From the NCBI RefSeq assembly GCF_000374645.1, contig NZ_KB894809.1, forward strand, positions 1 through 36,195: a stretch of DNA of 36,195 nt, read 5' to 3'. Within the stretch, counting starts at the first letter, position 1. Each line of letters begins with the position of its first letter. The translations under genes and the position numbers were made by a program. Shown here piece after piece: positions 4,261 to 28,253 of the stretch. Origin of the DNA: Arhodomonas aquaeolei DSM 8974. GTDB lineage: Bacteria > Pseudomonadota > Gammaproteobacteria > Nitrococcales > Nitrococcaceae. The notes under the pieces were generated by a model. It was given only the letters and a program-made list of their open reading frames with translations, was not told where the DNA came from and made no database searches.

Positions 4261-4277
4261 TAAGGCACAATGCCCTT

Positions 4278-13712: not shown

Positions 13713-14630
13713 TCACGCTAGGCGGATGCTGTCGAGCATCGCGGGTAACTCTTCGTGGAAGTCGCGACGTATCTCCGGCAACGCCCCGCTACGTGGCGTT
13801 GGTTCGACCTGAAGGTCATGCAAGCGTGCCTGCTGGTTGGTGTGGATCACCTCGACCGCAGGATCATGCCCACGCAGAGCGCTCACGGCATCGTTAACGG
13901 TTACATTCTCTTCCACGACGTTGTGCACGCCGGCTGCCACCTCGCCAGCAACCGCTGCACCGACGGCATGAGCGAGCGACGCGACGTGTACGACCGGCCG
14001 GACCTGCTCCCCACTGCCATGGACATGCAACGGTCGACCAAGCGCGGCATCGAGAACGAAGCGGTTCATGAATGTGTCGAAGCGGGCTACGGGGTTTCGG
14101 CCGTAAACCGTCCCGGCACGCAAAATCAAAGTATCCATTTGGCGAGCCAGGCGCTGCACGTGCCGCTCTCCCGCGAGCTTGGACGCCCCATAGGCATTCG
14201 CCGGCATCGGCTCTGTCGTAACGTCGGCCATATGACCCGGAAAGCCGTAGACCGCACCACTGCTAACGTAGACGATACGCGACACGCCGGCGTCCTCGGC
14301 CGCATAGCTGACCTCGGCAGTCCCCCAGTGGTTAACCTGGTCGAACGCGTGAGGATTGTCATCGGTATACGGCGATGGCGCGAGCGCGGCCAGATGGCAC
14401 ACGCAGTCCGCCCCCTCGACCGCGTGCTTCAAGGCACGCGAATTCAGGATATCGTCGACTATTACCCTCGCCTTGCTGTACGTCGGGCGCTTCTCTGCAA
14501 GCAGTAACCCATAGTTACGTCGGGCAAAGTTATCGTAGACAACCAGCTCGCCTATCCGCTCATCTTCCGCCAGCACATTCAGGGCACTCCAGCCAACATA
14601 GCCGGCTGCACCCGTGATAACGACCTTCAT
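13713..14630 (-). CDS. NAD-dependent epimerase/dehydratase (extended SDR)
   Basis: This is an extended short-chain dehydrogenase acting on an NDP-sugar. It starts MKVVITGAAGYVGWSALNVL (NAD-binding GxxGxxG), has VCHLAALAPSPYT, then YVSSGAVYGFPG and the catalytic YGASKLAGE (YxxxK). I place the start at ATG 14630, four bases after the cysH stop, where the Rossmann strand begins. AGGAAGG lies about 11 nt upstream. An in-frame extension to 14678 would overlap cysH and adds no family sequence. The sugar substrate cannot be read from sequence; 4-epimerase or reductase activity is possible. Confidence 0.85.
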   Translation of the reverse strand: MKVVITGAAGYVGWSALNVLAEDERIGELVVYDNFARRNYGLLLAEKRPTYSKARVIVDDILNSRALKHAVEGADCVCHLAALAPSPYTDDNPHAFDQVNHWGTAEVSYAAEDAGVSRIVYVSSGAVYGFPGHMADVTTEPMPANAYGASKLAGERHVQRLARQMDTLILRAGTVYGRNPVARFDTFMNRFVLDAALGRPLHVHGSGEQVRPVVHVASLAHAVGAAVAGEVAAGVHNVVEENVTVNDAVSALRGHDPAVEVIHTNQQARLHDLQVEPTPRSGALPEIRRDFHEELPAMLDSIRLA

Positions 14631-14634
14631 CCTC

Positions 14635-15342
14635 TTAGTCACCTTCCTGACGAGCTCCCAGCTCCGTGTGCAGACCACACTCCGTCTTGGACTGCCCGCT
14701 CCAGCGTCCGCCCCGCTCCGCTAAAGTATCCATAAACGGCCGCGTGCACGGCATGCAGCCAATACTCAGGTAACCCTGACGCTCCAGCGGATGCTCCGGC
14801 AGATCATACGCTTCGCGATAGGCATGGACCTCTCGCGCCGTCCAGGTGAGCATGGGGTGGTAACGAAGGATGCCATGGGGGCCGACCTGCTCCTCCGCAA
14901 AGCCTGCCCGTACAGCGCTTTGATCCGCACGTACTCCGCTAATCCAGACATCGTATGCCCGCAGGTAGGGTTCCAGCGGCTGGACCTTGTTCAGGAAGCA
15001 GCATTTGTCCGTATCCGCCGCGAACAGCAGCCGGCCATCCGCGGCCCGCTGTTCCGATTTCGGAACCGGAGGCCGAACGTTGATGACCTCGATCCCCAAC
15101 CGCGCCGCGGTCGCGTCACGAAATGCCAATGTCTCCGGGAAGAGATAGCCCGTGTCCAGGAACACTACCGGGACATTGGCACCGTGGCGCGACACGATGT
15201 GCAGCAGCGGCAGGCTCTGCGTCTGGAAGGATGAGCTCAGGAAAACACGCCTCCCTTCGGCATCGAACGCCGAAAGCCGTTCCAGCACCGCCGCGGCCTT
15301 CCCCTCCGCGGCGCTCAGCGCGTCCTCTTTCACCAGATTCAT
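14635..15342 (-). CDS. cysH: [4Fe-4S] adenylylsulfate/PAPS reductase
   Basis: CysH reduces APS or PAPS to sulfite with thioredoxin or glutaredoxin as reductant. The 235-residue protein has the PP-loop-derived fold (FLSSSFQTQSLPLLHIV, FLDTGYLFPETLAFRD). All four cluster cysteines typical of the APS-type enzymes are present: C114/C115 in DKCCFLNKV and C196/C199 in GCMPC. The catalytic C222 is in ECGLH. Finding it inside a polysaccharide operon is unusual. It overlaps the upstream glycosyltransferase stop by 4 nt and precedes an epimerase by 4 nt, so it is clearly co-transcribed. The same operon encodes UDP-sulfoquinovose synthase, which consumes sulfite, so a dedicated sulfite supply is a strong inference. 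A plain assimilatory role is the alternative; no cysN, cysD or cysI lies nearby. Confidence 0.92.
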   Translation of the reverse strand: MNLVKEDALSAAEGKAAAVLERLSAFDAEGRRVFLSSSFQTQSLPLLHIVSRHGANVPVVFLDTGYLFPETLAFRDATAARLGIEVINVRPPVPKSEQRAADGRLLFAADTDKCCFLNKVQPLEPYLRAYDVWISGVRADQSAVRAGFAEEQVGPHGILRYHPMLTWTAREVHAYREAYDLPEHPLERQGYLSIGCMPCTRPFMDTLAERGGRWSGQSKTECGLHTELGARQEGD

Positions 15343-16523
15343 CCAAGCTCCCTCTTGCGCCGCGCACCATTGCCCCGACGCCGGCGCCAGTCATCCAGCA
15401 CCTGCTCGTAGAAATCTCCAGTGGCCTTCGCCACCTTATCGACACTGAAGTTCTCGACCGCTATCGCCCTCGCGCACTCACCGCAACGCCTCCGCAGGGG
15501 TTCGTCGTCAAGCAGTGTCGCAACGCGCCCCGCCAGTGCCTCATGATCGCCAACCGGCACCACAAACCCACTGTCTCCATCGACGATATGTCGGGGGACA
15601 TCGCCCACATCAGTGGAGACAACAGGCCGGGCCATCGCCATCGCCTCCCACACCGAAACGGGCGAGGATTCCGCCTGCGAGCTACAGACATAGACATCGA
15701 AGCGTGCGAGCAGCGGCCGGACGTCAGCACGCGCGCCAACGAAATACACCCGCTCCAGCTCCAGCTCGCGAACCAACGCGAGAAGGCGGCGATAATAGGC
15801 ACGCTGACGGTCGAAGACCGGCCCAACGATGACCACGTGTGGCTCCTCCCCCCTGTCCCGCAGGCATGCGGCAGATCGGATCAGCGTCTCGAGCCCCTTG
15901 ATCGGGCTAACGTTCGCAACGGTGCCGATGACCGGCGTCGAGTCCGCGACGGGGAGATCAGGGTCGTTGGGATACCCCTGATCCGGATCGAACTGTGCCG
16001 AATCAACTGTCGCTGGCACCACGGCCTGTGGGCGCCCGGTTCGGATTCCACCCCCGTAATACTCCTGGGAGCGATGCGAGGCGAAGATAACCCCGCAGGC
16101 CAGCGGCCGCACCATCCGGAACAGTCCGTGCACCCAGCCAGGCATCGCCGTGTCGTTGAGATGCCAGACCACCGGCACGCCGGCGAGCCTTGCGGCGACC
16201 ACGCCCTTGTATTGCCAACTGCCGCCCGAGGCATGGACGAGATCGATTCGCTCACGGCGAATGACGCGGACGAGACGAATGACCTCAATAGGCGAAAACA
16301 GCAGATACCCAAGAGCGGCACGCCAATCTTTGGTAATGCGCGTAAGCGGCAATGCGCGGTAGGGCACGCCACGGCTCTCGCACATTTCGCGAAACGGACC
16401 AGAGTTGGCGCGCGGCATGACGATCAGCGTCTGGGCCCGTTCGTCGAGAGCTTCGGCGACCCGCACCATCCGCACCTGCGGCCCACCGAGCTTGCCTTCC
16501 TCAATAACGTTTACGACGTACAT
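15339..16523 (-). CDS. GT4-family glycosyltransferase
   Basis: This 394-residue GT-B enzyme has N-terminal GGPQVRMVRVAEAL and LVHASGGSWQYKGVVAARLAGVPVVWHLND. The C-terminal Glycos_transf_1 domain has IGTVANVSPIKGLETLI, FVGARADVRPLLARFDVYVCSSQAESSPVSVWEAMAMARPVVSTDVGDVPRHI. The EX7E-type donor motif is visible as ESSPVSVWE. It probably adds one sugar of the lipid-linked repeat unit at the cytoplasmic membrane. The start ATG (16521-16523) lies inside the 3' end of the upstream GT gene (23-nt overlap), and its own stop overlaps cysH by 4 nt. The GC content is back to the high level of the right-hand genes. Confidence 0.9.
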   Translation of the reverse strand: MYVVNVIEEGKLGGPQVRMVRVAEALDERAQTLIVMPRANSGPFREMCESRGVPYRALPLTRITKDWRAALGYLLFSPIEVIRLVRVIRRERIDLVHASGGSWQYKGVVAARLAGVPVVWHLNDTAMPGWVHGLFRMVRPLACGVIFASHRSQEYYGGGIRTGRPQAVVPATVDSAQFDPDQGYPNDPDLPVADSTPVIGTVANVSPIKGLETLIRSAACLRDRGEEPHVVIVGPVFDRQRAYYRRLLALVRELELERVYFVGARADVRPLLARFDVYVCSSQAESSPVSVWEAMAMARPVVSTDVGDVPRHIVDGDSGFVVPVGDHEALAGRVATLLDDEPLRRRCGECARAIAVENFSVDKVAKATGDFYEQVLDDWRRRRGNGARRKRELG

Positions 16524-17592
16524 GGCGCCTGCAAATTTTTTTTAGGACGTTCTCAAGTCGGATACCAACCGCTTCCTTTGAAAAACAATTTTTGTGTTCC
16601 AAACGCGCACCCGCGGATACTTTCCTTCTCAGCGATACATCTTCAACCATGTCCGCAAATATGGTCAGAAACTCATGAGAGTTTCTAAACAACCATCCAG
16701 TCTCACCGTGCGAAATGATAGAACGAAATGGTCGGTAGTCGTTAACAAGCGTAGGAACCCCCCAACGCTTCGCCTCAAGAATCACGTTTGGCGTGCCATC
16801 GTGCTCTGAGTGATATAGAAAGAAATCCGCTGACGAATAAAGAGAATCCACATCATGCACAAAACCAATGAGCTTCACAAAAAGAAGCCGATTTCCGTCA
16901 TATGATGCAAGAAAGTCTTCGACAACCGACCTAAAAACTCCGTCCCCCGCAACACTGAACGTCACCGATCGACCTGTCCGTTCGCAAAAGGCGGCCAGTT
17001 GCTTAATAAGCCAAATGACACCTAAGGCTTTGGACATAAAGTTTAGATTTGTGACAGTCAAACAGCAAGCAGAGCCCACAACGAACGAACGGTCACCAAC
17101 CGCTTCACCGTCACAAAACTGTGGGACAACAAAAATCTCCGCATCTCGCGACAAATCCCCCTTTACCCTGTCCGCCAAATCATCATTTACGCAGATAACG
17201 TAGCGTGGCAGTTTCAAAAAAAGCTTAGCGACCACATAATTCACAAAACCCTTTATCCGCCTTTTCAAGGAGGCATACGCTAGATTAGCTAGGAGGTCGC
17301 TATTATCTTGGAGCGGGTGTCCACCCAACCGCAAAACAACCGGAACCCCGGAAAGGCGCGCCGCGCAAATCGGAAGAACCATGTACAAACCAAGACCGAT
17401 GAATACAATGATGTCTGGCTTTTTGCCCCACCAAAACCAGCGACATATTTCCAAAAACGTGCTCTGATCCAGTTTCAGCCGTTGAGTTCTCGCCGCGTGG
17501 TGACGCCTCCGTAGCGGCTCTACTAAGAAACACGCTCGGTTTCGCGCCTCGTCCCTGGTGACAACCACGCAATCAAGTTTCGTTTCAACCAT
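16501..17592 (-). CDS. GT4-family glycosyltransferase (AT-rich, probably acquired)
   Basis: This 363-residue glycosyltransferase has PDIIVFIGLGLYMVLPICAA and GVPVVLRLGGHPLQDNSD in the acceptor half. The donor half reads VTNLNFMSKALG, VAGDGVFRSVVEDFL and SADFFLYHSEHDGTPNVILEAKRWGVPTLVNDY, containing the EX7E-like segment. Codon use is clearly different from the flanking high-GC genes, with many AT-ending codons and A/T runs, as in the next two genes upstream, suggesting recent transfer of this core. The ATG at 17592 is 6 nt after the Wzy-type gene stop. The C-terminus is very basic (RRHVRRKRY), compatible with membrane association. Confidence 0.85.
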   Translation of the reverse strand: MVETKLDCVVVTRDEARNRACFLVEPLRRRHHAARTQRLKLDQSTFLEICRWFWWGKKPDIIVFIGLGLYMVLPICAARLSGVPVVLRLGGHPLQDNSDLLANLAYASLKRRIKGFVNYVVAKLFLKLPRYVICVNDDLADRVKGDLSRDAEIFVVPQFCDGEAVGDRSFVVGSACCLTVTNLNFMSKALGVIWLIKQLAAFCERTGRSVTFSVAGDGVFRSVVEDFLASYDGNRLLFVKLIGFVHDVDSLYSSADFFLYHSEHDGTPNVILEAKRWGVPTLVNDYRPFRSIISHGETGWLFRNSHEFLTIFADMVEDVSLRRKVSAGARLEHKNCFSKEAVGIRLENVLKKICRRHVRRKRY

Positions 17593-17598
17593 TAGAAT

Positions 17599-18852
17599 TC
17601 AGACACCTTCTCCAACTCCATGAGAAAGCCGCCGCACAGGACCTCGCTTTTGACATTTTTCGCCGGGGATTTGCAAAACCAGCCCCATTAGTATTGGAAA
17701 TATATATACTCCATCAAACGGACGCACAAGAGAGTAAACAAGAAACGAAAACAGGAAAACAAAGGAAATCTTTCCTAGATCCGACAAAATTTCCATTTTG
17801 CACCTCCTCAAAGCCCAGAGGCGAAGCGAAATTCCCAAAAATATCAAAGGATAGCTAACTGCTCCAACAATCCCAAGTTCCCCCGCAGCCGTTATCAGGA
17901 TATTATGCGATACCAAACCGAACCCTAATCTCTCTTCCATATACGCAGACAACCCGCCGATCCCGCTACCCAGCGGCCAATAGTCTAGCGTCATCTTATA
18001 ACCTTCAAAATACATAGCGGCGCGCGCATAATCATATAAATCTTTGCTAGGCTGGATTACGCCACCACTGAGGACCTGCGACTCCTGAAACCTTGTTACC
18101 AGCTGCGCGATCAAGGAATTTTCGCCCCAAACTAGATAAGACACAAGATTTAAAAACAATACACTAAAACATATAAGTGCCGCTTTCAAAATCCCACTTC
18201 CGGCTCCACGGGACAAGACGAACGGCGTAAGAATCACAATCATAAACAAGATAACAAATGCCGCTCTGCTCAGAGACAACACCGCAACGATAACCGAAGC
18301 GACTATGGCAAGATTCCCAATCATCTTGCTTATGAGTCCATATTTTCTCGCCCAAAACAAATACGGCAAAGAAAGAAGAGCAATTGCTGAGGCGTGATTC
18401 GAAAAAGAACCAACAACCCCGGCCATTTGCGAACCTTCAGGACGAAGGGAACCAAAAACGGCGACCACAAAGAAAGATGACACAAACAACATAATTGAAA
18501 AACTCAAGGCGACTAATGCAATTGCTCGCAGCAAAACTTCGCGATCGAGTTTGTATGAGGCCATATACGCCAACCCAATATTCACCGAACTCGCGAGCAG
18601 CGCAACGCGAGTTTCTTCGGGGTAGCTCGTGGCAAAAACCGAAAACAGAGGGACCAAATATATCCCCCCCGCCAAAATAAAAGACTTTTTAACAACCAAA
18701 GGGCGGCGTGCGACAAAGAGACACAAACTCAAAAAGGCGGCACATGCAGCGACATATATGTGCAAAGTTTTGAACAAAAATAATCGTGCTGGATACAAAA
18801 AAATGAAACCCTGCAAGAAAAAAACGACAATACTTGAAACGGACATACTCAT
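17599..18852 (-). CDS. O-antigen polymerase/ligase family membrane protein (Wzy type)
   Basis: This 417-residue multi-spanning membrane protein has about ten or more hydrophobic segments. A large periplasmic loop carries the PF04932 Wzy_C signature: YWPLGSGIGGLSAYMEER, then SHNILITAAGELGIVG. It is likely the polymerase that joins flipped repeat units in the periplasm; a ligase role cannot be excluded from sequence alone. It lies with the flippase gene, consistent with a Wzx/Wzy-dependent route. The DNA is among the most AT-rich of the window. It starts with ATG 18852, 6 nt after the sulfotransferase stop. Wzy proteins are usually the most strain-specific part of such loci. Confidence 0.85.
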   Translation of the reverse strand: MSMSVSSIVVFFLQGFIFLYPARLFLFKTLHIYVAACAAFLSLCLFVARRPLVVKKSFILAGGIYLVPLFSVFATSYPEETRVALLASSVNIGLAYMASYKLDREVLLRAIALVALSFSIMLFVSSFFVVAVFGSLRPEGSQMAGVVGSFSNHASAIALLSLPYLFWARKYGLISKMIGNLAIVASVIVAVLSLSRAAFVILFMIVILTPFVLSRGAGSGILKAALICFSVLFLNLVSYLVWGENSLIAQLVTRFQESQVLSGGVIQPSKDLYDYARAAMYFEGYKMTLDYWPLGSGIGGLSAYMEERLGFGLVSHNILITAAGELGIVGAVSYPLIFLGISLRLWALRRCKMEILSDLGKISFVFLFSFLVYSLVRPFDGVYIFPILMGLVLQIPGEKCQKRGPVRRLSHGVGEGV

Positions 18853-18858
18853 AAAGTT

Positions 18859-19854
18859 CTAATTTTTTTCTGAGCGATCGACACCCCGGTAACCCAAGGC
18901 TCTATTTAACAAATGAGCCGAGACCGTCACGACACTAGTCTTCTGCGGTGGCGTGCGCTCTTTCCAAGATGCGTCGGCACGTAGGTCTTCGAATCCAACA
19001 GTGTACCTCGAGGGCGATCCGCCAATGGCGTGGCTTTCCTGCGCATAGTTTTTTTTGGTCAAGGAAAAGCTATGTTCGATACGAGACATCTCGTTTTTCG
19101 GATCGTCGAAGAATTCCTCGTAACGAAGCATAGCCCGACGTCCGCGACTGGTGAACGCAAAGGCAACCAGACCATTCAGTGTTGACAGCATCCATGCCCG
19201 GAACGCTTTCTCAGCCACATCTTCAGGGGCAGGTGAACGGCCAGTGCCTGCCATTATCTTCCTCGCTAAGACCTCGCCTCGCGCTCTCTTTGTCATCGAA
19301 GCAACGACTGAACGCCCGTCACGCAGCAAATTAATGAGCCTCATTTTCTTTGGCGCTACAGCCTTGAGAATGTAATATTGATGTGCCTGCTTCGAGGAAT
19401 CGACAATTAAACTGACGTTCGCAACACGCGATATAGCTCGATAAATGCGAAGGCAATTCTCTCCAACCTCTAGTTCCCGTTCGAATGCAGGGACGAGTTT
19501 TCCCATCCGGTTTGTCAGGCGTGCCCCCAAAAGCCTCACAAACAATCGGAAAAAGACACGCTGACGACGGCTCAGCCGGCTTCGGAATGAACTCTGCACG
19601 AGGTCAAGCCCCGCTTCTTCTGCCACCGCACACCAAAACGCACACTCCGATACGGGGGCACCGCATGCACACGTTTCCTCTGCGCCGTCTTCCTTGATTA
19701 TCCGGGCGTCACCCTTGGCAAACTGCGAGATACGATAAAGCTCCCCGCAAGCGACTCCTCCGAAACGCCGTGCGATATAATCTTCGATTAGTGTCGAACC
19801 GGATCGGGAAGGTCCCACGATGTATATCACAGTAATGTCCGTTGCCGTCGTCAT
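18859..19854 (-). CDS. PAPS-dependent sulfotransferase (Sulfotransfer_3 type)
   Basis: It transfers sulfate from PAPS to a carbohydrate acceptor. The 5'-phosphosulfate loop is YIVGPSRSGSTLIEDYIAR near the N-terminus and the 3'-phosphate loop is LINLLRDGRSVVASMTKRAR. A cysteine pattern typical of EPS-locus members (CACGAPVSECAFW) lies between them. I take ATG 19854 as start because it places the PSB loop at residue ~13 and lies 4 nt after the flippase stop; an in-frame ATG at 19884 would add 10 residues with no better ribosome site. The length, about 331 residues, is normal. The gene is moderately AT-rich like its downstream neighbours. All the nucleotide-binding motifs expected are intact. 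Confidence 0.9.
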   Translation of the reverse strand: MTTATDITVIYIVGPSRSGSTLIEDYIARRFGGVACGELYRISQFAKGDARIIKEDGAEETCACGAPVSECAFWCAVAEEAGLDLVQSSFRSRLSRRQRVFFRLFVRLLGARLTNRMGKLVPAFERELEVGENCLRIYRAISRVANVSLIVDSSKQAHQYYILKAVAPKKMRLINLLRDGRSVVASMTKRARGEVLARKIMAGTGRSPAPEDVAEKAFRAWMLSTLNGLVAFAFTSRGRRAMLRYEEFFDDPKNEMSRIEHSFSLTKKNYAQESHAIGGSPSRYTVGFEDLRADASWKERTPPQKTSVVTVSAHLLNRALGYRGVDRSEKN

Positions 19855-19858
19855 GGTT

Positions 19859-21253
19859 TCACCGAAAAAAAGCAGCCGTGGCATGGCTGTTGAGCGAAAG
19901 GTGTCGCCGCGCCATCCACCAGAGTCCGCTGTTCCAGATAGCGAGCGTCACGAACGTGGCGGTAGCCGCACCGAGACCGCCATATACCGGGATAAATGCA
20001 AAATTCAGTGTCAAATTAGTAGCTGCCGCAAGCACCATGAAGCGGGCGACATAGCGCTCGAGGCCCGTCGTGTTCATGAGTATGCCGATGGGTCCGAAGC
20101 TTGCGTTCATAATCTGGGCCGCTATCAGGATCATCGCCGCTGGCCGACTGGCCGTGAAGTCAGGTCCGAATAGCCATCCAGAGAGAAGTTTTCCAAAAAA
20201 GAGCCAAGGGACAGCCAAAAGGAGCGCGACGCCGGTCGATATGAGCGCTCCGCTGGTCAAGAGGCTTTGCAGTCTATCGAGATTGCCTTGCCGATAGAGA
20301 CGAGCATAAGAAGGCGAAAACACCGCACTCACGATCTGCAATCCGAACGTGCAAAGCATGCTGATCTGATACGCGATCCGATACACGCCGACGTCATCGG
20401 CGGGCCAAAAAACGCCGATCATCAGGATGTCCGCGTGATTGTTTATCTGGTTCGCTCCTGCGGCTAGCGCCATCGTCAGCGCAGCCTTCCAAAGCGGGCC
20501 CGTTGGCGGCGACCTGTAGTTGGCACTCAAGCGCAGGCTCGCGGGGCGCCGTCGCCACAGAAACACCGTTCCCAGCGTAAAAGCTGCCGCCACGGCGGCG
20601 AGTTGCATGGTCATGGCAAAACGCGCTGTCGCTGGCACGGCTAGCCCCAGCATGAGTGCAAAGGCGAGCATCGCCCCGGGCTTTACGACCATCTCGGGAA
20701 TCTGCGCTAGCACCACATGCTGCAACCCGCGCAGCGCCCCGGCGCGCAATGCGCCAAAGGCAAGCAGGGGGACGAGGCACAGCGCCAGACCATACGTCCA
20801 GAGCTGTTCGGCCTCCATTCCGTCGCCCGCCACGAAAAGGGCGAATCCACCGACCGCCACCACGGCTAGGGAAAACAGGCCTGCTCCGCGCGTCGCCCAG
20901 CCCCAGACGGCGCGCATGTACGCCCAGTCCTCGGAAACCGTCGCCGTCGCCGTCTCGCGCATCACGAGGTTAGGCAGGCCGAACTGCACGACAATGGCGC
21001 AGACCGAAGCAAGCACGAACGCGGAGGAGTAAAGGCCGTACCCGTCCGCGCCGAGCGTGCGCGCCAGCACCACTGCGACGGCAAATCCAAGCCCGGCGTT
21101 CGCGACGCGCAGGCCGGCGCTGCCAAGAAGCGGGCGTAGGAAGGATGATTTTCTTAATCGCTCACCGACGTTTCCGAACACCGTATGGTGGGAGGTATGC
21201 TCCCCCTCTTGCCGACGGCGGCCACGGAACCCGCACTGTCGCTTGGCCCTCAT
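19859..21253 (-). CDS. Oligosaccharide flippase (Wzx-type, MOP superfamily)
   Basis: This membrane protein of ~464 residues has roughly 12-14 predicted hydrophobic segments. The N-terminal part GSAGLRVANAGLGFAVAVVLARTLGADGYGLYSSAFVLASV is the classic start of the polysaccharide_synt/PST flippase family. It would move undecaprenyl-linked repeat units to the periplasm before polymerisation. The first ~30 residues are polar and basic and not typical. The ATG at 21253 lacks a Shine-Dalgarno, so a shorter native N-terminus is possible, though no better internal start stands out. It begins 8 nt after the second sulfotransferase stop and ends 4 nt before the next sulfotransferase. It is flanked on both sides by sulfotransferase genes. 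Confidence 0.88.
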   Translation of the reverse strand: MRAKRQCGFRGRRRQEGEHTSHHTVFGNVGERLRKSSFLRPLLGSAGLRVANAGLGFAVAVVLARTLGADGYGLYSSAFVLASVCAIVVQFGLPNLVMRETATATVSEDWAYMRAVWGWATRGAGLFSLAVVAVGGFALFVAGDGMEAEQLWTYGLALCLVPLLAFGALRAGALRGLQHVVLAQIPEMVVKPGAMLAFALMLGLAVPATARFAMTMQLAAVAAAFTLGTVFLWRRRPASLRLSANYRSPPTGPLWKAALTMALAAGANQINNHADILMIGVFWPADDVGVYRIAYQISMLCTFGLQIVSAVFSPSYARLYRQGNLDRLQSLLTSGALISTGVALLLAVPWLFFGKLLSGWLFGPDFTASRPAAMILIAAQIMNASFGPIGILMNTTGLERYVARFMVLAAATNLTLNFAFIPVYGGLGAATATFVTLAIWNSGLWWMARRHLSLNSHATAAFFR

Positions 21254-21260
21254 GCGCCAA

Positions 21261-22169
21261 TCACGAGCGGCGCTCCCATTCCGTCGACGATTCTGGAGCC
21301 GCGAAATCCTGAGGAAATACCCGCCGTACTGCTCCCTTCAGCCTGCTCACATGGTACCAAGCCGGCATCACAAGGGGCCGGCGGAACTGCGTCGACGTAC
21401 GCTCACCCGGCCGTCGGCCAACGCTTCGCCTCTCTAGCTCATCGACGATATCGCACACTTCACTATCCCGATCTATCCGCGCCTGGATCGTCTCTCTCAC
21501 CCTTTCGAAATCGTCGCTAAATTCCGGCTCTGCCCGGATTCGGAGTTCGCCGCCGTCCAGTTGCTGGCGCACCCCGAAGCTGCCGAAAACGTGATGGGAC
21601 TGAACTCGCGCCGCCATTTCCTGTCCGCTCACATAATGCATTCCGATCCGTGAGCAGATATCCCCGAGTATCTTGGCGGGGGACCTGACCAGCTCCCGGT
21701 AAGAGACGGCCGAGAATGGAAAGCCCAGCCTCAATAGGCGACCATGGTATTTTACGAAATCATCCCGCCATCCAAGCGGATCGCGCCCTCGCTTGAACTG
21801 CGAATAGGCAAGCTCGATCGGTGGCTTGTATATCAGAACGTTGAAAACAGAAATTCCCGATTTCTCAGCCCAGGACTGGGTGTCGATAAGCCACGGCATA
21901 TACTTGGACGAGTCGATGACGAAATCGACGTTGAGCCTATCGCAAACCGTCCTGTGAAATCTTGCCTCGGGCACATACGCGATTTTCTCCCAGACAGGGC
22001 AGGGGTCCGAACCACACGCGCAACGTATCTTCCTGTGATGGGTTCGCCAGGGACGGAACCATGCGTACACTTCACCACAGGAAAACGCGCTCTGCCCATT
22101 GCCGAGCATGACATCCAGCATTGTAGTCCCGGAACGGCTTGCTCCGCAGACGTTAATAAGGGTTGGCAT
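21261..22169 (-). CDS. Sulfotransferase family protein
   Basis: This PAPS-dependent sulfotransferase-like protein, about 302 residues, starts MPTLINVCGASRSGTTMLDVML, a clear 5'-PSB loop. A cysteine-bearing segment follows (KIRCACGSDPCPVWEKI), then VDFVIDSSKYMPWLI. The region matching the 3'-phosphate loop reads LIYKPPIELAYSQFKRG, with KPP where RDP/RDG is usual, so PAP binding there may differ. ATG 22169 is preceded by GGGGAGAG at good spacing and overlaps the previous gene by 17 nt. An in-frame extension to 22352 contains low-complexity sequence from the other gene and is rejected. It probably sulfates the polysaccharide or its precursor. Confidence 0.85.
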   Translation of the reverse strand: MPTLINVCGASRSGTTMLDVMLGNGQSAFSCGEVYAWFRPWRTHHRKIRCACGSDPCPVWEKIAYVPEARFHRTVCDRLNVDFVIDSSKYMPWLIDTQSWAEKSGISVFNVLIYKPPIELAYSQFKRGRDPLGWRDDFVKYHGRLLRLGFPFSAVSYRELVRSPAKILGDICSRIGMHYVSGQEMAARVQSHHVFGSFGVRQQLDGGELRIRAEPEFSDDFERVRETIQARIDRDSEVCDIVDELERRSVGRRPGERTSTQFRRPLVMPAWYHVSRLKGAVRRVFPQDFAAPESSTEWERRS

Positions 22170-22737
22170 GGTGCTCTCCCCGAATCTCCCGGTGACGGAG
22201 TGCCAGAGCGCCCTCGTGACCGCTTTCCCGGAACGCCGCCGCGGCCCCCGGCGTGAAATGCCTGCGCCAGCCACCCAGGGCCCCTTCGCGCACGAAGGAT
22301 ATCTCGGCGTCGGCCGACCGGGCTTCCTCTGCCGCCTGTTTCGCACGGGCAAAGCTGTGGCGCTCGGCCACGTCTGCGGCCCGCCCCTCCGTCAATGGCT
22401 CGCCATTCAGCACTTCAGCGACGCGCAACAGTTCACCCGGCGTATCTGCGCGCAGCGCCTCGTAACTGGTCTGCACCGTGCCGGGGCGGTGCGCCCAGGC
22501 GCGTACGAATTGCGGCCAGATGGAGCTAGGGCTCGAGGGGGATTGCGAGACGAACCGGATGAAGGCGGAGGAAATTTCCAATGCGTCCGAGAGCATTTGG
22601 GCGAGCCATGTCCCGCCTGATTTTGGGTACTCATTCACAACGTAGTACGGTGCGACGCCAGAGAACGACCGCACATAAGCCTTGTGCGTAGCCGCGGAGA
22701 TGCGCGACCGAAGCCGTTGTAACCGCGGAACGCTCAA
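22153..22737 (-). CDS. Shortened Sulfotransfer_1-type sulfotransferase with an internal deletion
   Basis: At 194 residues it is clearly shorter than the ~280 usual for this family. The N-terminal PSB loop is intact (VVNEYPKSGGTWLAQMLSDAL) and so is the C-terminal acceptor/gate region (FVREGALGGWRRHFTP, preceded by TVQTSYEALRADTPGELLRVAEVL). The central block that should hold the 3'-phosphate motif (RxPxDxxxS) is absent: sequence jumps from FIRFVSQSP to SSIWPQFVRAW in one open frame. The start is TTG 22735-22737, well supported by AAAGGAG 7 nt upstream, and it overlaps the dehydratase stop (TTGA). The reading frame is open, so a protein may be made, but catalysis is doubtful. It may be an in-frame deletion relic. 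Confidence 0.75.
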   Translation of the reverse strand: MSVPRLQRLRSRISAATHKAYVRSFSGVAPYYVVNEYPKSGGTWLAQMLSDALEISSAFIRFVSQSPSSPSSIWPQFVRAWAHRPGTVQTSYEALRADTPGELLRVAEVLNGEPLTEGRAADVAERHSFARAKQAAEEARSADAEISFVREGALGGWRRHFTPGAAAAFRESGHEGALALRHREIRGEHHANPY

Positions 22738-23771
22738 GTCAGCACTCCTTTGTCCTCGAAGTACGCGGCAACTTCATCCCGGTTTAGCGAAAGTTCATGC
22801 GCAGAGTTGTAGGGTCGGTCGGGTTGACGATTGGCGCGTAGGTGCGCATAAGCTGGGGTCGTTTGATCAGCGAAAGCCGAAAGGATTACAAAGAAATCAC
22901 CATATTCCCAAGTTCGCCGAACCTCTTCTTCGTTCATCAGCTCCTCGTACATTTTTTCTCCGGGCTTGGAGCCGATCTCGATAATCTCAACCTCCCCGTC
23001 TCCGCACAGGGCATCCCGCATGACATGCGCGATATCCTCTATGCGTGCAACCGGCATCTTGGTGACCATGACTTCACCGCCCGTCGCGAGCCAGACCGAT
23101 TCCAGTACCAGGCGGACCGCTTCCTCGAGTGTCATGATGAAGCGCGTCATGCGTCGGTCGGTAAGTGTAATCGGACCGCCGGCCTCGATTTGACGCCGGA
23201 AAAGCGGGACGACTGACCCACGCGAGCCCAGGACGTTCCCGAAACGCGTCGAGGCGAACACCGTTCCGGCGGCGCCTGCGCGAGCATCCAGTCCGTTAGC
23301 CGTTGTCTCGGCCGCCGCGGTCATCAATCGTTCGCCCATCAGCTTGGACGTGCCCATGACGTTGGTGGGGTTCACGGCTTTGTCCGAGGAGGTAAAGATC
23401 ACCCGCTCGACGCCGGTCTCCTGAGCCGCATCGATCACGTTCTGTGTGCCCAGGATGTTGGACGCTACTGCCTGGGCCGGACTGTCCTCGCAGAGGCCAA
23501 CGTGTTTGAGGGCGGCAGCGTGAAGCACGATGTCGACACCGCGCATTCGCAGCTTCAGTGCCTCGCGATCGCGGATATCGGCAAGGTGTCCGGAGACCTT
23601 TCCGGTTTGCCGGTAATGCTCTATCTGGAAGAAGAGTTCGGTCTCGTTGTTGTCTATGCAGACGACATGCGCAGCGGGCCCGGCCACGAGCTGACGTACA
23701 AGCTCCGCTCCGACCGTACCGCACGAACCAGTGACCAGGACCGTCTTATCGCGGAATTTTTCCATGACCAT
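22734..23771 (-). CDS. UDP-GlcNAc 4,6-dehydratase-like SDR (CapD/PseB type)
   Basis: This soluble short-chain dehydrogenase of 345 residues would form a UDP-4-keto-6-deoxy-HexNAc. It has VLVTGSCGTVGAELVRQL, DNNETELFFQ, LHAAALKHVGLCE, and the active-site stretch FTSSDKAVNPTNVMGTSKLMGE. There the usual YxxxK Tyr is replaced by Met with a preceding SSDKA, as in the FlaA1/PglF/CapD dehydratases. STRFGNVLGSRGSVVPLFRRQI and DRRMTRFIMTLEEAV complete the signature. It lacks the N-terminal membrane domain of full-length CapD. The ATG at 23771 shares one base with the sqdB stop (TAATG), so it is coupled to sqdB. The product could feed an amino or deoxy sugar branch of the polymer. Confidence 0.9.
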   Translation of the reverse strand: MVMEKFRDKTVLVTGSCGTVGAELVRQLVAGPAAHVVCIDNNETELFFQIEHYRQTGKVSGHLADIRDREALKLRMRGVDIVLHAAALKHVGLCEDSPAQAVASNILGTQNVIDAAQETGVERVIFTSSDKAVNPTNVMGTSKLMGERLMTAAAETTANGLDARAGAAGTVFASTRFGNVLGSRGSVVPLFRRQIEAGGPITLTDRRMTRFIMTLEEAVRLVLESVWLATGGEVMVTKMPVARIEDIAHVMRDALCGDGEVEIIEIGSKPGEKMYEELMNEEEVRRTWEYGDFFVILSAFADQTTPAYAHLRANRQPDRPYNSAHELSLNRDEVAAYFEDKGVLT

Positions 23772-24919
23772 TAGCTCCAGCGCACGCGCGGCATAATCCG
23801 CTCATTCACGATGCGATCCCGATTGCCAAGGATGCGCTCGAGCATGGAGCACAACACTTCTTCCGTCATGTAATGCGGTTTAAGCCCGAGTTCGAGCAGT
23901 CCGGTGTGCACTGGATTGTAGTAATGCTCTTCCTTTTCCTTGCGCGGATTCGGGACGGATTTAACCGGCACATCAAGCCCCATAGCCGCCCCGGCCGACT
24001 GCACCCGCTCGGCGAGCTCATTGACCGTGAAGGTTTCAGTGAGCTGGTTGAAGATACGCAGCTCGCCCTTCTCGGCCGGGCTTTCCGCGGCCAGCCGTAC
24101 ACACTGCAGCGTGTCCCGCAGATTCAGGTAGCCGCGCGTCTGGCCGCCGCCCCCGTATACCGTGAGCGGTATGCCCGCGACGGCCTGTACCAGGAAGCGG
24201 TTGACCACGGTCCCGAAGATGTCGTCGTAGTGAAAGTTGGGGCACAGGCGCGCGTCGAGATCGGCCTCATCCGTGGAGATGCCGTAGACAGGGCCCTGCA
24301 TCAGGTCGGTTACCCGAAGGCCATATGTCCGGACATAGAACCAGAGGAGGTCCGTATCCAGCACCTTGGTCGTGTGATAGAGCGACCCGGCGGCGCGCGG
24401 GAAGAGGAAGGTATCCTTGCGTCCCTTGTGCTCGACCTCGAGCCAGCCCTCCTCGATATCGATGTTGGGCGTGCCGTATTCCCCCATCGTGCCCAGTTTG
24501 ACGATGTGCGCGTCCGGCACGATGTCCTTCACCGCCCAAATGCAGTTGAAGGTCACGTCGAGATTGTTCTGGAACGTCTCGCGCGCCTCGCGGAAACCAC
24601 GCATTGAATACGGCGCGGATGGCTGCTCGGCATAGTGGATGACGGTATCGGGCTCCGCCTGCTGCACGAGCTCGAACATGAAGTCGGGGTCGCTTAGATC
24701 GCCAATGCGGACCGCGATCTCGTAACCGCTGGCGGCGGCGAAGATCCTCGCCCTCTCACTGAGGCTTGGCGCCGGCATCAGCGCCTCGCTGTCCGTCGCC
24801 TCGGCGATATGCCGTCGGAGGTAGTTATCGGCTACGGTCACCTCGTGGCCGGCAGCGGCGAAATCCATCGCGGTTGGCCACCCCAGGTAACCATCGCCGC
24901 CGAGAATCAGGACGCGCAT
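23771..24919 (-). CDS. sqdB: UDP-sulfoquinovose synthase (SQD1/SqdB family)
   Basis: This SDR adds sulfite to a UDP-4-keto-glucose-5-ene intermediate, turning UDP-glucose into UDP-6-sulfoquinovose. The 382-residue protein carries the specific signatures: MRVLILGGDGYLGWPTAM (NAD loop), HYAEQPSAPYSM, and KLGTMGEYGTPNIDIEEG with Thr144, Met145 and Glu147, plus Tyr181/Lys185 in YHTTK. The spacing matches the plant SQD1 active site to within one residue. ATG 24919 has AAGGAG 6 nt upstream. SqdB normally serves sulfolipid synthesis with a glycosyltransferase such as SqdX or SqdD. Here it lies in a polysaccharide operon with cysH and sulfotransferases, so the sulfonated sugar is more likely to enter a glycan. 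No obvious SqdX is present. Confidence 0.9.
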   Translation of the reverse strand: MRVLILGGDGYLGWPTAMDFAAAGHEVTVADNYLRRHIAEATDSEALMPAPSLSERARIFAAASGYEIAVRIGDLSDPDFMFELVQQAEPDTVIHYAEQPSAPYSMRGFREARETFQNNLDVTFNCIWAVKDIVPDAHIVKLGTMGEYGTPNIDIEEGWLEVEHKGRKDTFLFPRAAGSLYHTTKVLDTDLLWFYVRTYGLRVTDLMQGPVYGISTDEADLDARLCPNFHYDDIFGTVVNRFLVQAVAGIPLTVYGGGGQTRGYLNLRDTLQCVRLAAESPAEKGELRIFNQLTETFTVNELAERVQSAGAAMGLDVPVKSVPNPRKEKEEHYYNPVHTGLLELGLKPHYMTEEVLCSMLERILGNRDRIVNERIMPRVRWS

Positions 24920-24934: not shown

Positions 24935-25921
24935 TCAGTCTGTCTGTTTCGCCAGGAAGTGACGCACGGTCCGGCGCAATCCTTCGGAAAGCGCCACCTC
25001 CGGCTGCCAGCCCAGGCGCTCACGCGCCTTGGACGTATCCGAATAGTTGCGGGCCACATCGCCGGTACGGGTCTCTCCGTGGAATATCTCGGGGACCGTC
25101 GCGCCTTCGTCGCGCATAACGCCCATCAGGGTCTCCGTCATCTCCGAGACCGTGGTCTCCTGCGCGGTGGCGACCTGGAACGTCTCACCGCCGACGCCGG
25201 GGACCTCCGCGGCACACCGGATCGCACGCACCAGGTCCGAAATGTGGATGAAATCCCGTGTCTGTTTTCCGTCGCCGTAGATTTCGAGTCGCTCGCCCGC
25301 CATGGCTTGTTTTATGAACTTGGCGACTACCGACTGTTTATGCCCGGAACCTTCGCCGTACACATTGCCGAAGCGCAATGCCACCGTCTCGACACCAAAG
25401 CAGTGGAAATAGGCGGAGCAGTATCCCTCCCCCGCCAGCTTCGACGCCCCATAGGGAGACGCAGGATGGGGGGCCATCTCCTCGTGCAACGGGGGCACCT
25501 GAACACCGAGCGGTGCCCCGGAGGAGGCGAAGACAAAGCGTCGGACTTCGTTTGCGTGACTGCTCTGCAGCAGATTGAGGGTACCCAGGACGTTCGTCCG
25601 GCAATCCGCTTCAGGGTCGGCCACGGAGGGGCCTACCCCGGTATTGGCGGCCAGGTGGACGACGACATCGGCGCCGGCCACTGCGCGTAACACCGTGTCC
25701 CTGTCGAGAATATCGCCCTCCAGTAAAGCCAGCGGCGCTGACCAGTCATCCGTCTGCGCATCTCTGTCCAGCTCAACGAAGGGCGCTACATGGGCCAGAT
25801 CGTCGCGGGTGCCGACGGACAGGTTGTCCAGCACACGGACAGAGTGCCCGCTATCCGCGAGGATCGTCGCCGCAAGGGCGCGTCCGATAAATCCACAACC
25901 ACCGGTAATAAGCCAATTCAT
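24935..25921 (-). CDS. NAD-dependent NDP-sugar epimerase (UDP-glucose/GlcNAc 4-epimerase-like)
   Basis: This 328-residue extended SDR starts MNWLITGGCGFIGRALAATIL. It has VVHLAANTGVGPSVADPEADCRTNVLGT, FVFASSGAPLG, and the catalytic SPYGASKLAGEGYCSAY, then ALRFGNVYGEGSGH and GDGKQTRDFIHISDLVRAI, the pattern of GalE/WbpP-type epimerases. I place the start at ATG 25921. The frame stays open upstream to 26341, but that part translates REP palindromes and low-complexity DNA. It is the first enzyme gene after the marR regulator and ends 15 nt before the sqdB start. It likely supplies a Gal, GalNAc or uronic sugar; exact specificity is unknown. Confidence 0.9.
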   Translation of the reverse strand: MNWLITGGCGFIGRALAATILADSGHSVRVLDNLSVGTRDDLAHVAPFVELDRDAQTDDWSAPLALLEGDILDRDTVLRAVAGADVVVHLAANTGVGPSVADPEADCRTNVLGTLNLLQSSHANEVRRFVFASSGAPLGVQVPPLHEEMAPHPASPYGASKLAGEGYCSAYFHCFGVETVALRFGNVYGEGSGHKQSVVAKFIKQAMAGERLEIYGDGKQTRDFIHISDLVRAIRCAAEVPGVGGETFQVATAQETTVSEMTETLMGVMRDEGATVPEIFHGETRTGDVARNYSDTSKARERLGWQPEVALSEGLRRTVRHFLAKQTD

Positions 25922-26163
25922 ATCGGGAGGATCCTGATTTGAAGATAGAGACTGGTCGACACCGAGGCCTATGGACACGTTCTCGCGCCGTGGTGCGCGT
26001 GCCGTAAAAGCCGCCGTGCCGGAGCTATGCGATGAGTCATTTGTAGAAGAAGTCGTTCCATCAGTCGTCGCTACGACCAGCGCATGTGCCGCTTTTAGGC
26101 ACGCTACCGCCTGGGATGCAGCGACCCCATCACGTAGGTGTTTGATTTTACGGCACCGCCTTT
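25922..26163. other. Leader region between the regulator gene and the first polysaccharide enzyme gene
   Basis: This 242-bp stretch lies upstream of the epimerase ATG and is less GC-rich than the REP block beside it. AGGA sits about 10 nt before the start codon. I found no convincing -10/-35 pair and no conserved ORF. It is the likely place for a promoter, antiterminator site or attenuator of the long operon. Confidence 0.3.
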
Positions 26164-26396
26164 GTCGCACACGGCCTTTGGCCGTGCACGACCTACGGCG
26201 GGGGAGTCCCTCTCCCCTGCCCCTCTCCCGTCGAGGGAGAGGGGGTGAGAAATCGTGCGCCAATTGTCCGTTGCACCGTCGCGCTGTCCAGTCCATCGCC
26301 GTAGGTTGGCTGCTCCTGGCTGCCAACATCACACGTCGCACCGCACCGGAGACGTCGGCCGCCTTGAGCAGCCGACCTACACGCCCGCCGACCTAC
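26164..26396. repeat. REP/palindrome cluster between epimerase and marR
   Basis: In order: type B minus at 26164-26196 (CACGGCC/GGCCGTG, loop TTT). A type D hairpin at about 26208-26243 has 9-bp arms CCCTCTCCC and GGGAGAGGG around GTCGA. Type A plus at 26301-26327 is the GTTGGCTGC variant with one arm mismatch. Type C minus at 26354-26380 is followed by a partial copy at 26384-26396. The GTAG of the last copy contains the TAG stop codon of marR. Confidence 0.8.
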
Positions 26397-26758
26397 GTAC
26401 CTCTGTCGTCCCTGTCTCCGCCGGACGACACGTCGCCCTGTCCGGCCACTTCGGCGCGCAGGGTCTCGATCTCCGCGAGCAGCTCGCGGTGCTCGCGCTC
26501 CTTGCGGCGGAGAAAGCGCACCGCCAGCGCTGCCTTCTCGCTCGCACCCTTGGGCGTGAGCGTGTAGAGATAGGCGCGCTTGTTCGGGTTGCGCCGGAAA
26601 TTCTCCGCTTTCACCAGACCACGGTCGATGAGCGCGCGCAGGCAGTAGTTCGTCCGCCCGAGGCTGACACCGAGCGCACTCGCGAGCTCCCGCTGGGTGA
26701 GCTCGGGGTTGTCCTCGAGCAGGCGAAGGGCCTGCAGGCGTAGCTCGTCGGATGCCAT
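26393..26758 (-). CDS. MarR-family EPS-associated transcriptional regulator
   Basis: This 121-residue winged-helix protein reads MASDELRLQALRLLEDNPELTQRELASALGVSLGRTNYCLRALIDRGLVKAENFRRNPNKRAYLYTLTPKG, followed by a coiled-coil-like tail (AVRFLRRKEREHRELLAEIETLRAE). This matches the small MarR-type regulators confined to exopolysaccharide loci of proteobacteria. It is transcribed in the same direction as the following 21 polysaccharide genes, so it probably controls them and itself. I chose ATG 26758: the frame stays open far upstream but that sequence is not protein-like. A GTTCAG/CTGAAC inverted repeat lies 7-21 bp before the ATG. The stop codon TAG is in a REP GTAG motif. Confidence 0.88.
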   Translation of the reverse strand: MASDELRLQALRLLEDNPELTQRELASALGVSLGRTNYCLRALIDRGLVKAENFRRNPNKRAYLYTLTPKGASEKAALAVRFLRRKEREHRELLAEIETLRAEVAGQGDVSSGGDRDDRGT

Positions 26759-26764
26759 GGCTGT

Positions 26765-26820
26765 GTTCAGTGGCTGAACGATGATCGACGTATTGAACGT
26801 GTTGTGGCCCGCGATTGCAA
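26765..26820 (-). promoter_or_regulatory. Candidate marR operator and weak promoter
   Basis: A perfect 6-bp inverted repeat, GTTCAG and CTGAAC with a TGG spacer, lies at 26765-26779, just before the marR ATG. A related TTGAAC occurs at 26793-26798. A possible sigma70-like pair on the minus strand is TTGCAA (26815-26820) and TTCAAT (26792-26797), 17 bp apart, each matching 4 of 6 consensus bases. Autoregulation by the MarR protein is inferred; the promoter call is weak. Confidence 0.3.
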
Positions 26821-27359
26821 GGCCTGGCCGACTACGCCGCTCGCGGTGCGCCACGGCGGGCGCCTTCCGTGACGCCGTTCGGTGGGTGGGGCACGGAGGG
26901 GCGAGATGATGCCCCACCGGCATGTTCTCGTGCCAGTGCCAAGCGCTCGCTGGATGCGGGCGCCGCCGGTCTGTCGCGGTGGCCGCCGGGCCACTCTTGG
27001 CGCAGGCCAATAGTGCGTTCGTCACCGGCAGTGGCGCGTTGGAGGGGCGTCGCCGGCCCCGGGCCGCCGGGCTATTTCGCCGGGGGCACGTGGGGCCATA
27101 CCGTGGTGGCGAGTGGGGCCACGCCGCATACGGCCGGTCGCCGCGCCTACGAACACGGTTTGGGCTGGAGGTCGGCCGCTGGGCAGCCGCCGACGTATGG
27201 CGAGGTGAGCCGCGGGCGCGAGCCGCCGATGAGACCGCGCGCCCGGGGACCGCTGCGCGGCCTTGCGGCGAGGCGGCGGTGCCCTGGATGGCCCGCTGTG
27301 CTAGGCTGTAGCCCTCATCCGACAGGACGTCGGTCCCCCGGGCAAGGGACGTGCCCCCC
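26821..27359. other. Gene-free GC-rich region
   Basis: About 540 bp of very GC-rich DNA lies between divergently transcribed marR and the DUF4351 gene. Open frames exist on both strands but their translations are proline/arginine/glycine-rich and match nothing I recognise. No REP palindromes are seen here. The right end carries AAGGGA, the ribosome site of the next gene. Confidence 0.4.
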
Positions 27360-28253
27360 ATGAACCACGATCAGAACTTCAAGAACCTCATCCTGGACTA
27401 CCCGCTACAGGCGCTGCGCTTCTTCGCCGCGGAGGAGGCCGCCGCGGTGGACGAGGGTGCGCGGGTCGTGCCGATCCGCCAGGAGCAGCTCCAGGAGCGC
27501 CTGGGCGAGCGTTTCCGCGAGCTCGACGTGCCCTTGCTGCTCGAATGGCCGGATGGGCGGCGCGAGGCGGTGCTGTTCGCCCTCGAGGAGGAGAGCGCGG
27601 GGCGGCGGTTCAGCATCCACCGCCTTGCGCACTATTGCCTGGACCTGGCGGCGCTGTTCGACACGGCGAGGGTGGTGCCGGTGGTGATCTTCCTGGGCGG
27701 CGGCGGGGCGGCGCCGGCGGCGCTGTCGCTGGGCGGTGATCGCCACCGCTACCTGCATTTCCGCTATCTCGCCTGCGACCTCTCGCGCCTCGAGGCGGCG
27801 CGGTATCTCGACAGCGACAACCTGGTGGCGCGGCTGAACCTGCCCAACATGGCCTACCCGCCCGGCGAGAAGTTGCCGGTCTTCGCGCAGGCCCTGCGCG
27901 GCCTGCTCGGCCTGGAACCCGACCCGGAGCGGCAGGCCAAGTACCTGGATTTCATCGACATCTATGCAGCGCTCGATGATAATGAACGCAAGGAATTCGA
28001 ACGGCGCTACGCCGACGAGGTAGAGGTGATGAACGCATTCGCCGAGCGGTTCACCCGGCAGGGAATGGAACAAGGGATGCGCCAGGGGATGCAACGGGGC
28101 GAGGCGGCGGTGCTCATCCGGCTCATGGAACGCCGCTTCGGGGCCTTGGCGCCGGTGCATCGCGAGCGCATCGAGGCCGCGGACGCCGAGACGCTGCTGG
28201 AGTGGTCCGAGCGCATCCTCACCGCCACCCGGCCGGAGGACGTGCTGGAATAG
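27360..28253 (+). CDS. Rpn/PD-(D/E)XK nuclease-like family protein with DUF4351 tail
   Basis: This 297-residue protein begins MNHDQNFKNLILDYPLQALRFFA. A PD-(D/E)XK-like core follows (LLLEWPDGRREAVLFALEEES...FSIHRLAHYCLDLA), then a linker with repeated RQGMEQGMRQGMQRG. A DUF4351-type C-terminus closes it (AAVLIRLMERRFGALAPVHRERIEAADAETLLEWSERIL). Such proteins are often annotated as Rpn-family transposases or recombination-promoting nucleases and occur in many copies per genome. The third acidic/lysine catalytic position is not obvious, so nuclease activity is uncertain. ATG 27360 follows AAGGGA by 10 nt; an in-frame GTG at 27351 is also possible. It is the only complete plus-strand gene in the window and is followed by a dense REP block. 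Confidence 0.8.
   Translation: MNHDQNFKNLILDYPLQALRFFAAEEAAAVDEGARVVPIRQEQLQERLGERFRELDVPLLLEWPDGRREAVLFALEEESAGRRFSIHRLAHYCLDLAALFDTARVVPVVIFLGGGGAAPAALSLGGDRHRYLHFRYLACDLSRLEAARYLDSDNLVARLNLPNMAYPPGEKLPVFAQALRGLLGLEPDPERQAKYLDFIDIYAALDDNERKEFERRYADEVEVMNAFAERFTRQGMEQGMRQGMQRGEAAVLIRLMERRFGALAPVHRERIEAADAETLLEWSERILTATRPEDVLE

Follow-up and report, generated by a model that had tools for sequence, protein, structure and literature searches.

We conclude that the polysaccharide operon at the start of contig C10 of Arhodomonas aquaeolei DSM 8974 probably encodes a cassette for the synthesis of a nucleotide sugar sulfonated at C6 and destined for a polysaccharide, with sulfite supplied locally. 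The window, by which we mean the whole stretch of DNA analyzed, is the first 36 kb of that contig (36,195 nucleotides of NZ_KB894809.1, in a 3.96-Mb genome rated 100% complete). The genes in question are sqdB, which encodes an enzyme resembling the UDP-sulfoquinovose synthase SQD1, and cysH, which encodes a reductase of the iron-sulfur (Fe-S) type. The cassette is real and recurrent, and its product is predicted from gene content, linkage, a residue signature, and the co-occurrence of a partner dehydratase. A first-pass annotation had proposed that this locus builds a sulfoquinovose-containing polysaccharide with its own sulfite source. The sulfite-linked sugar cassette, with a spare cysH left for assimilation, holds up well, but sulfoquinovose as the product is not established. 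The Arg of the EQR motif is lost, the subfamily is tied to an adjoining PF02719 dehydratase whose nearest solved relative, Pen, acts on UDP-N-acetylglucosamine (UDP-GlcNAc), and the identity of the sugar cannot be read from SQD1-like residues by themselves, so that sulfoquinovose is unsupported as stated.

In the pathway that we propose, the Fe-S CysH would reduce adenosine 5'-phosphosulfate (APS) to sulfite beside the enzyme that uses it. The SQD1-like enzyme, of a subfamily with Pro in place of the EQR Arg (here, Pro-type), would oxidize C4, form or receive a 4-keto-5,6-ene, and then add sulfite at C6 and reduce C4. A dedicated PF02719 partner and a GalE-like short-chain dehydrogenase/reductase (SDR) would prepare or finish the same sugar, which glycosyltransferases would then attach to the repeat unit. 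Sulfite addition by the window enzyme is predicted from the chemistry of SQD1 and of Agl3 (Sulfolobus acidocaldarius), the latter reported to proceed by C4 oxidation, dehydration to the 5,6-ene, sulfite addition, and reduction (PMC4388408).

A Pro-type subfamily of SQD1-like enzymes

The window SqdB (382 amino acids) matches Arabidopsis SQD1 (1QRR) end to end (416 bits, residues 2 to 381) with 49% identity (187/380). The active-site residues previously listed for it (T144, M145, E147, Y181, and K185) are all present, as is Y148, so that it shares with SQD1 and Agl3 the SDR family, the Thr/Tyr/Lys triad, and the Met, Glu, and Tyr of the TMGEYG motif. The retention of the SQD1/Agl3 catalytic residues other than the EQR Arg supports the favored reading. 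The window enzyme, known from genes alone, differs from both in its dedicated adjoining PF02719 partner and in having Pro at position 100, where SQD1 and Agl3 have Arg; this Arg is reported as essential in Agl3, in which R101A is inactive (PMC4388408). The score against NCBIfam NF041015 (448 bits; cut-off, 575) was dropped as a mark of divergence because Arabidopsis SQD1 itself, at only 483 bits, also falls short.

Patterns from the window protein, scanned across a collection of 84,980 species genomes, yielded 552 confirmed relatives. The best 80 (67 to 86% identity), a choice by closeness and to that extent biased, were kept and form with the window the 81 Pro-type loci discussed below. In an even sample of 398 genomes of the phylum, 36 matches reached E ≤ 1e-40 (the window's own not counted), and their scores split cleanly into 10 at 438 to 640 bits and 26 at 257 to 293 bits, with none between. 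The EQR motif reads EQP in 92/92 rows of the close group, including the ten even-sample rows (these rows represent 90 loci, as L120 and L171 share contigs with L049 and L064). The Arg is retained in 32/32 rows tallied from outside the subfamily, namely, SQD1, 22 of the 26 distant even-sample matches (4 were not fetched), eight plasmid loci, and the second copy of genome G005; a Rhizobium rhizogenes relative was left out of the tally at this position. A tree of 58 rows places the 38 rows labeled Pro on one side of a branch with support of 91/95, or 100/99 without L180. Judged by record titles, the subfamily occurs in at least seven phyla, mostly in metagenome-assembled genomes.

Pro at the EQR position was rejected as a unique mark of the clade, because two haloarchaeal relatives, tallied apart from the 92 and 32 rows, share it. 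They are placed far outside the Pro-type clade (without a Pro label in the tree, as the pattern missed them). Haloarchaeal plasmids (L214:8001-11170 and L215:8001-11202) carry an sqdB relative with the sequence AAQPSAPYS, along with two consecutive SDR genes; the first of these in L214 ranks next-best among the relatives of the window protein encoded at 13713-14678. G005, from the same family as the window's host, has a Pro-type and an Arg-type sqdB in one genome (contigs C407 and C319) and so lends itself to comparing the two functions. In the window's own genome, the window copy is the only full-length sqdB homologue, and no separate sulfolipid enzyme was found by that measure.

Arg-type bacterial sqdB loci (Rhodobacterales and Sinorhizobium), which we take to make sulfolipid, resemble the window in an sqdB homologue of about 37 to 44% identity. 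They differ in having Arg in every row examined, and neither the PF02719 partner nor cysH occurs in the fetched stretches of 27 such loci. At some of them, a glycosyltransferase adjoins sqdB, as in sulfolipid loci.

The dehydratase partner and the nature of the sugar

In 67/81 Pro-type loci, sqdB has a PF02719 gene (at least 250 bits) no more than 600 bp away. Across the 398 genomes, matches to the window partner reach 284 to 407 bits in eight genomes besides its own and no more than 214 bits in all others. All eight are Pro-type genomes in which the partner shares a contig with sqdB (8/10 Pro-type versus 0/387 other genomes at 284 bits or more; p 3e-15, kinship uncorrected). Among solved structures, the partner is closest to Pen (6BWC; 229 bits, versus 201 for the next), reported to be the UDP-GlcNAc 5,6-dehydratase of Bacillus thuringiensis, with Pal as its follow-on enzyme (PMC8987622). 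The active site of the partner reads [ST]DK...MG in the 77 loci (of 91) that have a same-strand partner within 2.5 kb: S replaces the T of TDK in 71/77, and Met replaces the catalytic Tyr in 77/77. The partner thus keeps the SDK or TDK but not the Tyr of the Pen-type [ST]DK...Y site; Met in place of Tyr, in a TDK...M pattern, is reported for the 4,6-dehydratases WbpM and PglF (PMC8987622). By analogy, the window would resemble the Pen/Pal system in having two SDRs that handle a 5,6-ene, and it differs in the Met of the partner and in a second enzyme that is SQD1-like rather than Pal-like. A GalE-like SDR occurs within 10 kb of sqdB in 39/81 Pro-type loci, and its homologues at 235 bits or more were found, among all loci fetched, only alongside Pro-type sqdB.

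The substrate of the cassette may be UDP-glucose (UDP-Glc), which would yield sulfoquinovose, or a UDP-GlcNAc derivative, which would yield a 6-sulfo amino sugar, and the evidence leans to the latter because of the Arg loss and the kinship of the partner to Pen. A C6-sulfonated N-acetylhexosamine (UDP-6-sulfo-N-acetylquinovosamine [UDP-6-sulfo-QuiNAc] or its 4-epimer) is a possible product, offered tentatively; this amino-sugar form takes about half of the confidence that we place in the sulfonated sugar overall. In this version, the Pen-related partner would turn UDP-GlcNAc into a 5,6-ene, the Pro-type SqdB would oxidize it to the 4-keto-5,6-ene, add the locally made sulfite, and reduce the product, and the GalE-like SDR may set C4.

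The alternative that survives best is an ordinary UDP-sulfoquinovose synthase that acts on UDP-Glc and provides sulfoquinovose for the polysaccharide, with the partner producing a 6-deoxy amino sugar as a second, separate component of that polymer. The identity to SQD1 and the retained triad, Met145, Glu147, and Tyr148 are what one would expect of such an enzyme, and Agl3, which is reported to serve a glycan and not a lipid, shows that sulfoquinovose can enter a nonlipid glycan (PMC8987622). However, the entire subfamily has Pro at the position of the Arg essential in Agl3, and two independent sugars would need no partner so exclusive and so close to sqdB. We regard this alternative as rather doubtful.

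Among known sulfonated sugars, 6-sulfofucose occurs in the N-glycans of Thermoplasma. A literature search (titles and abstracts, with thin coverage of subscription journals) found neither this cassette nor any bacterial polysaccharide with a sulfonated amino sugar. In the accessible text of PMC13372026 and PMC12890257, the term matched is a sulfoquinovose breakdown product.

CysH and the supply of sulfite

The window CysH (235 amino acids; PF01507, 128.7 bits; NF002537, 228 bits against a cut-off of 154) has all of the cysteines claimed for it, with C114/C115 and C196/C199 forming a CC...CxxC arrangement and C222 lying in a C-terminal ECGLH. N118 makes its motif CC..NK, where other copies read CC..RK. 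Fe-S CysH proteins can use APS, and cysteine-less ones use 3'-phosphoadenosine 5'-phosphosulfate (PAPS). We infer from its cysteines that the window CysH prefers APS over PAPS.

Whether the genome holds a second cysH, a question raised by the first-pass annotation, can be answered: PF01507 matches fall at two sites, the window and C8:18508-19026. The C8 copy lacks the CC and CxxC cysteines, and no sulfur gene was found among the four neighboring ORFs (open reading frames) scanned. The genome's sole ATP sulfurylase (Sat) match is fused to APS kinase, and two routes seem to be present in the genome, one from PAPS (C8) and one from APS (window). Given the second, cysteine-less cysH and the Sat-kinase fusion, sulfate assimilation could proceed without the window cysH. 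As had been claimed, sulfate-assimilation genes do not surround the pair; the Sat, CysD, CysN, and sulfite reductase families found no match among 30 window ORFs scanned with Pfam.

Sulfite sources were also sought in eleven further Pro-type genomes without sqdB-linked cysH (the ten of the even sample and G005). CysH exceeds its cut-off in six. Each of the other five has DsrA over its cut-off, two neighboring NIR_SIR genes, and a Sat, and one of these also has CysH pieces below the cut-off. CysH or DsrA is therefore over cut-off in 11/11, a figure that stands as a count rather than as an enrichment over ordinary genomes. DsrA is found in 7/10 Pro-type versus 44/387 other genomes (p 3e-5), an association that fits a sulfite-using enzyme.

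Linkage of sqdB and cysH

A cysH homologue is present in the fetched stretch of 18/81 Pro-type loci, that is, the window and 17 of the 80 related loci. Many fetched stretches end at contig ends, and among the 37 loci with at least 19 kb, 11 have cysH. By comparison, cysH was found in none of 40 control loci with PF02719 but without sqdB (Fisher p 6e-4, uncorrected for kinship and for phylum mix, the controls all being from the window's phylum and the 81 loci spanning many phyla). Linkage was counted on stop-to-stop ORFs, and gene order was called with a greedy gene caller that missed sqdB in 9 and took the wrong ORF in 4 of the 80 related loci. Two of the linked copies (L102 and L118) were added by an Escherichia coli CysH query; the count without both is 16/81, and one of these 16 (L075) is a 168-amino-acid fragment. 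Nine of the 18 linked CysH proteins, including that of the window, have CC..NK, six have CC..RK, one is the fragment, and the Fe-S cysteines are missing from two. The eight CC..NK copies besides the window's are from Bacteroidota and Chloroflexota, and one unlinked CC..NK CysH occurs in the genome of L075. The two proteins without Fe-S cysteines (L102:1361 and L118:8125) are divergent, CysH-like, and on a very long branch; although they lie near Pro-type sqdB, they may not form sulfite.

Nine linked loci of Bacteroidota and Chloroflexota share the gene order cysH-SDR-PF02719-sqdB; seven have it uninterrupted, and two (L086 and L100) have a single additional gene. Culturable isolates that carry the cassette include Psychromarinibacter sediminicola, whose cysH is linked, and Salibaculum griseiflavum. 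The window holds the same cassette genes rearranged, with Wzx, Wzy, sulfotransferase, and glycosyltransferase genes in between. The description of cysH and sqdB as members of one tightly spaced minus-strand operon proved accurate in strand and spacing, with no gap between them exceeding 7 bp, and the predicted operon is of the Wzx/Wzy type. The SDR that follows the window cysH has its 8 best homologous loci placing it, without exception, directly after an sqdB-linked cysH. In the CysH tree, the window copy groups with the sqdB-linked cysH of two Saprospirales (support, 99/100), and four changes of the linked label, of which two are forced, are required on this tree. It is likely that sqdB and cysH were joined several times; one gain with losses is also possible.

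The pairing also occurs on two Rhodobacterales plasmids of rep_cluster_252 (M382, L021:12001-15764; Pelagovum, L022:12001-13907), where sqdB and an Fe-S cysH are close neighbors in a setting of glycosyltransferase and other polysaccharide-type genes. Here, in contrast to the window, sqdB is Arg-type, and in M382 an annotated sulfotransferase stands between sqdB and cysH. This is apparently an independent assembly, and the pairing of cysH with Arg-type sqdB as well suggests more than one origin of such pairs. The plasmid records opened were 5 of 70 with a CysH match and 11 of 267 with an SqdB match; the five with CysH comprise these two and three assimilation operons that also contain sulfite reductase and either cobA or cysG. 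Addition of four plasmid loci, two without cysH (L015 and L016) and two with it (L021 and L022), changed the Arg-type count from 0/27 to 2/31. We left our assessment unchanged despite this weaker contrast because each of the two plasmids responsible for it carries an sqdB-cysH pair of its own.

Several observations weigh against a sulfite-linked cassette. The linkage that the first-pass annotation suggested looking for recurs, but as a minority trait: 63/81 Pro-type loci have no cysH in the fetched stretch, and it is absent from the fetched stretches of all 10 Pro-type loci of the even phylum sample. The difference between 18/81 and the Arg-type 2/31 is not significant (p 0.06, or 0.15 with only the 16 copies that remain without L102 and L118). 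With the EQR Arg, needed in Agl3, replaced by Pro, the sulfite chemistry could have changed. The sulfotransferases of the operon and the one on plasmid L021 offer another reason for sulfur genes nearby, and the DsrA association may in part reflect shared ancestry or habitat.

A sulfite-free role for the SQD1-like enzyme in an amino-sugar pathway, whether as epimerase, reductase, or 5,6-dehydratase, with cysH present for another reason, would accommodate the lost Arg and the absence of cysH from most Pro-type loci. UDP-sulfoquinovose synthase is, moreover, reported to act already as a 5,6-dehydratase without sulfite (PMC8987622, PMC4388408). We nevertheless consider this role improbable, in view of the enrichment of cysH relative to PF02719 loci without sqdB and the finding of CysH or DsrA in all eleven further genomes. 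Still less probable is a part for cysH in sulfate-ester metabolism, in which the polysaccharide would be sulfated and CysH would only trim the APS/PAPS pool for sulfotransferases. CysH destroys the sulfo donor rather than making it, and 12/18 cysH-linked loci lack a homologue of the window-type sulfotransferases, a comparison that misses other kinds, such as the annotated one on L021. Its attraction lies in the sulfotransferase-like genes of the window, in the one between sqdB and cysH on L021, in the distribution of window-type homologues (6/18 cysH-linked versus 9/63 other loci; p 0.09), and in the CysD, CysN, CysC, or Sat homologues of 9/81 Pro-type loci versus 1/40 controls. That the window cysH is a displaced assimilatory gene is very hard to credit: Fe-S CysH is assimilatory elsewhere, as in the three plasmid operons, but this genome has another cysH and the Sat-kinase fusion, and the window copy groups with the Saprospirales linked copies.

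Layout of the operon and neighboring genes

Gene content and spacing predict a minus-strand polysaccharide operon that runs from about 27.4 kb down to 1.5 kb (Table 1); the chosen ORFs from 26341 to 8601 are all on that strand, with gaps of at most 15 bp. The order is as follows: MarR_EPS regulator, GalE-like SDR, SQD1-like enzyme, PF02719 dehydratase, sulfotransferase-like genes, Wzx, and probable Wzy, followed by two family 4 glycosyltransferases (GT4), cysH, an epimerase-like SDR, MocA-type dehydrogenases, WecB, WecC, a heparinase-like protein, a third GT4, and ManC. As a Wzx/Wzy polysaccharide locus, it has a clear Wzx and three GT4 genes, with Wzy recognized only by a match below the cut-off. 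A sulfolipid (SQDG) locus would have an SqdX or SqdD glycosyltransferase beside sqdB; no GT8 family match was found among the window ORFs in the Pfam scan, in which no SqdX reference was compared.

The three sulfotransferase-like ORFs, like Pro100 of SqdB, had been left out of the first-pass annotation. The PF00685 sulfotransferase is missing about 84 central residues relative to five aligned loci (L042, L045, L049, L050, and L114) and may be inactive. Upstream of the operon, at 29219-31763 on the minus strand, are ATP-binding cassette (ABC) transporter genes with an NMT1-type binding protein.

Table 1. Features of the predicted polysaccharide operon in the window
Feature	Position	Strand	Basis or remark
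SQD1/SqdB-like SDR, Pro-type subfamily (P100; Arg in SQD1/Agl3)	23771..24919	-	1QRR match, residue table, tree
PF02719 dehydratase, dedicated partner of Pro-type SqdB	22734..23771	-	SDK...NVMGTSK active-site motif; nearest solved relative, Pen (6BWC)
GalE/WbpP-like SDR	24935..26341	-	True start probably near 25921, from domain match
CysH, Fe-S (APS-reductase) type	14635..15342	-	CC..NK motif; predicted local sulfite source
Epimerase-like SDR following cysH	13713..14678	-	
Wzx flippase	19859..21253	-	PF01943/PF13440
Probable Wzy polymerase	17599..18852	-	PF04932, 25.5 bits; cut-off of 31.7 not reached
Sulfotransferase-like	18859..19884	-	PF13469
Sulfotransferase-like, weak	21261..22352	-	PF13469, 26.9 bits; cut-off, 27
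Sulfotransferase without central ~84 amino acids found in relatives	22153..22737	-	PF00685
GT4 glycosyltransferase	15339..16523	-	
GT4 glycosyltransferase	16501..17592	-	
GT4 glycosyltransferase	3034..4284	-	
WecC-like UDP-N-acetylmannosamine (ManNAc) dehydrogenase and WecB-like UDP-GlcNAc 2-epimerase	6142..8546	-	Supply of N-acetylmannosaminuronic acid (ManNAcA)
ManC-like GDP-mannose pyrophosphorylase/isomerase	1455..2873	-	
MarR_EPS (exopolysaccharide [EPS]-associated) regulator	26393..27361	-	TIGR04176, cut-off exceeded

Significance

The Pro-type branch of the sulfolipid-sugar enzyme family looks like a distinct and uncharacterized one. If the sulfite-linked cassette works as proposed, C-sulfonated sugars would extend beyond sulfolipid and archaeal N-glycans to become widespread acidic units of bacterial surface polysaccharides, and the subfamily that produces them would be one that sequence models file as UDP-sulfoquinovose synthase. 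The sulfur cycle would gain a new organosulfonate source, and sulfite metabolism would be connected to the cell surface in a new way. The question of substrate specificity would then be a sharp one, involving one Arg-to-Pro change and one dedicated partner. If the amino-sugar reading is true, the product would represent a new class of bacterial nucleotide sugar.

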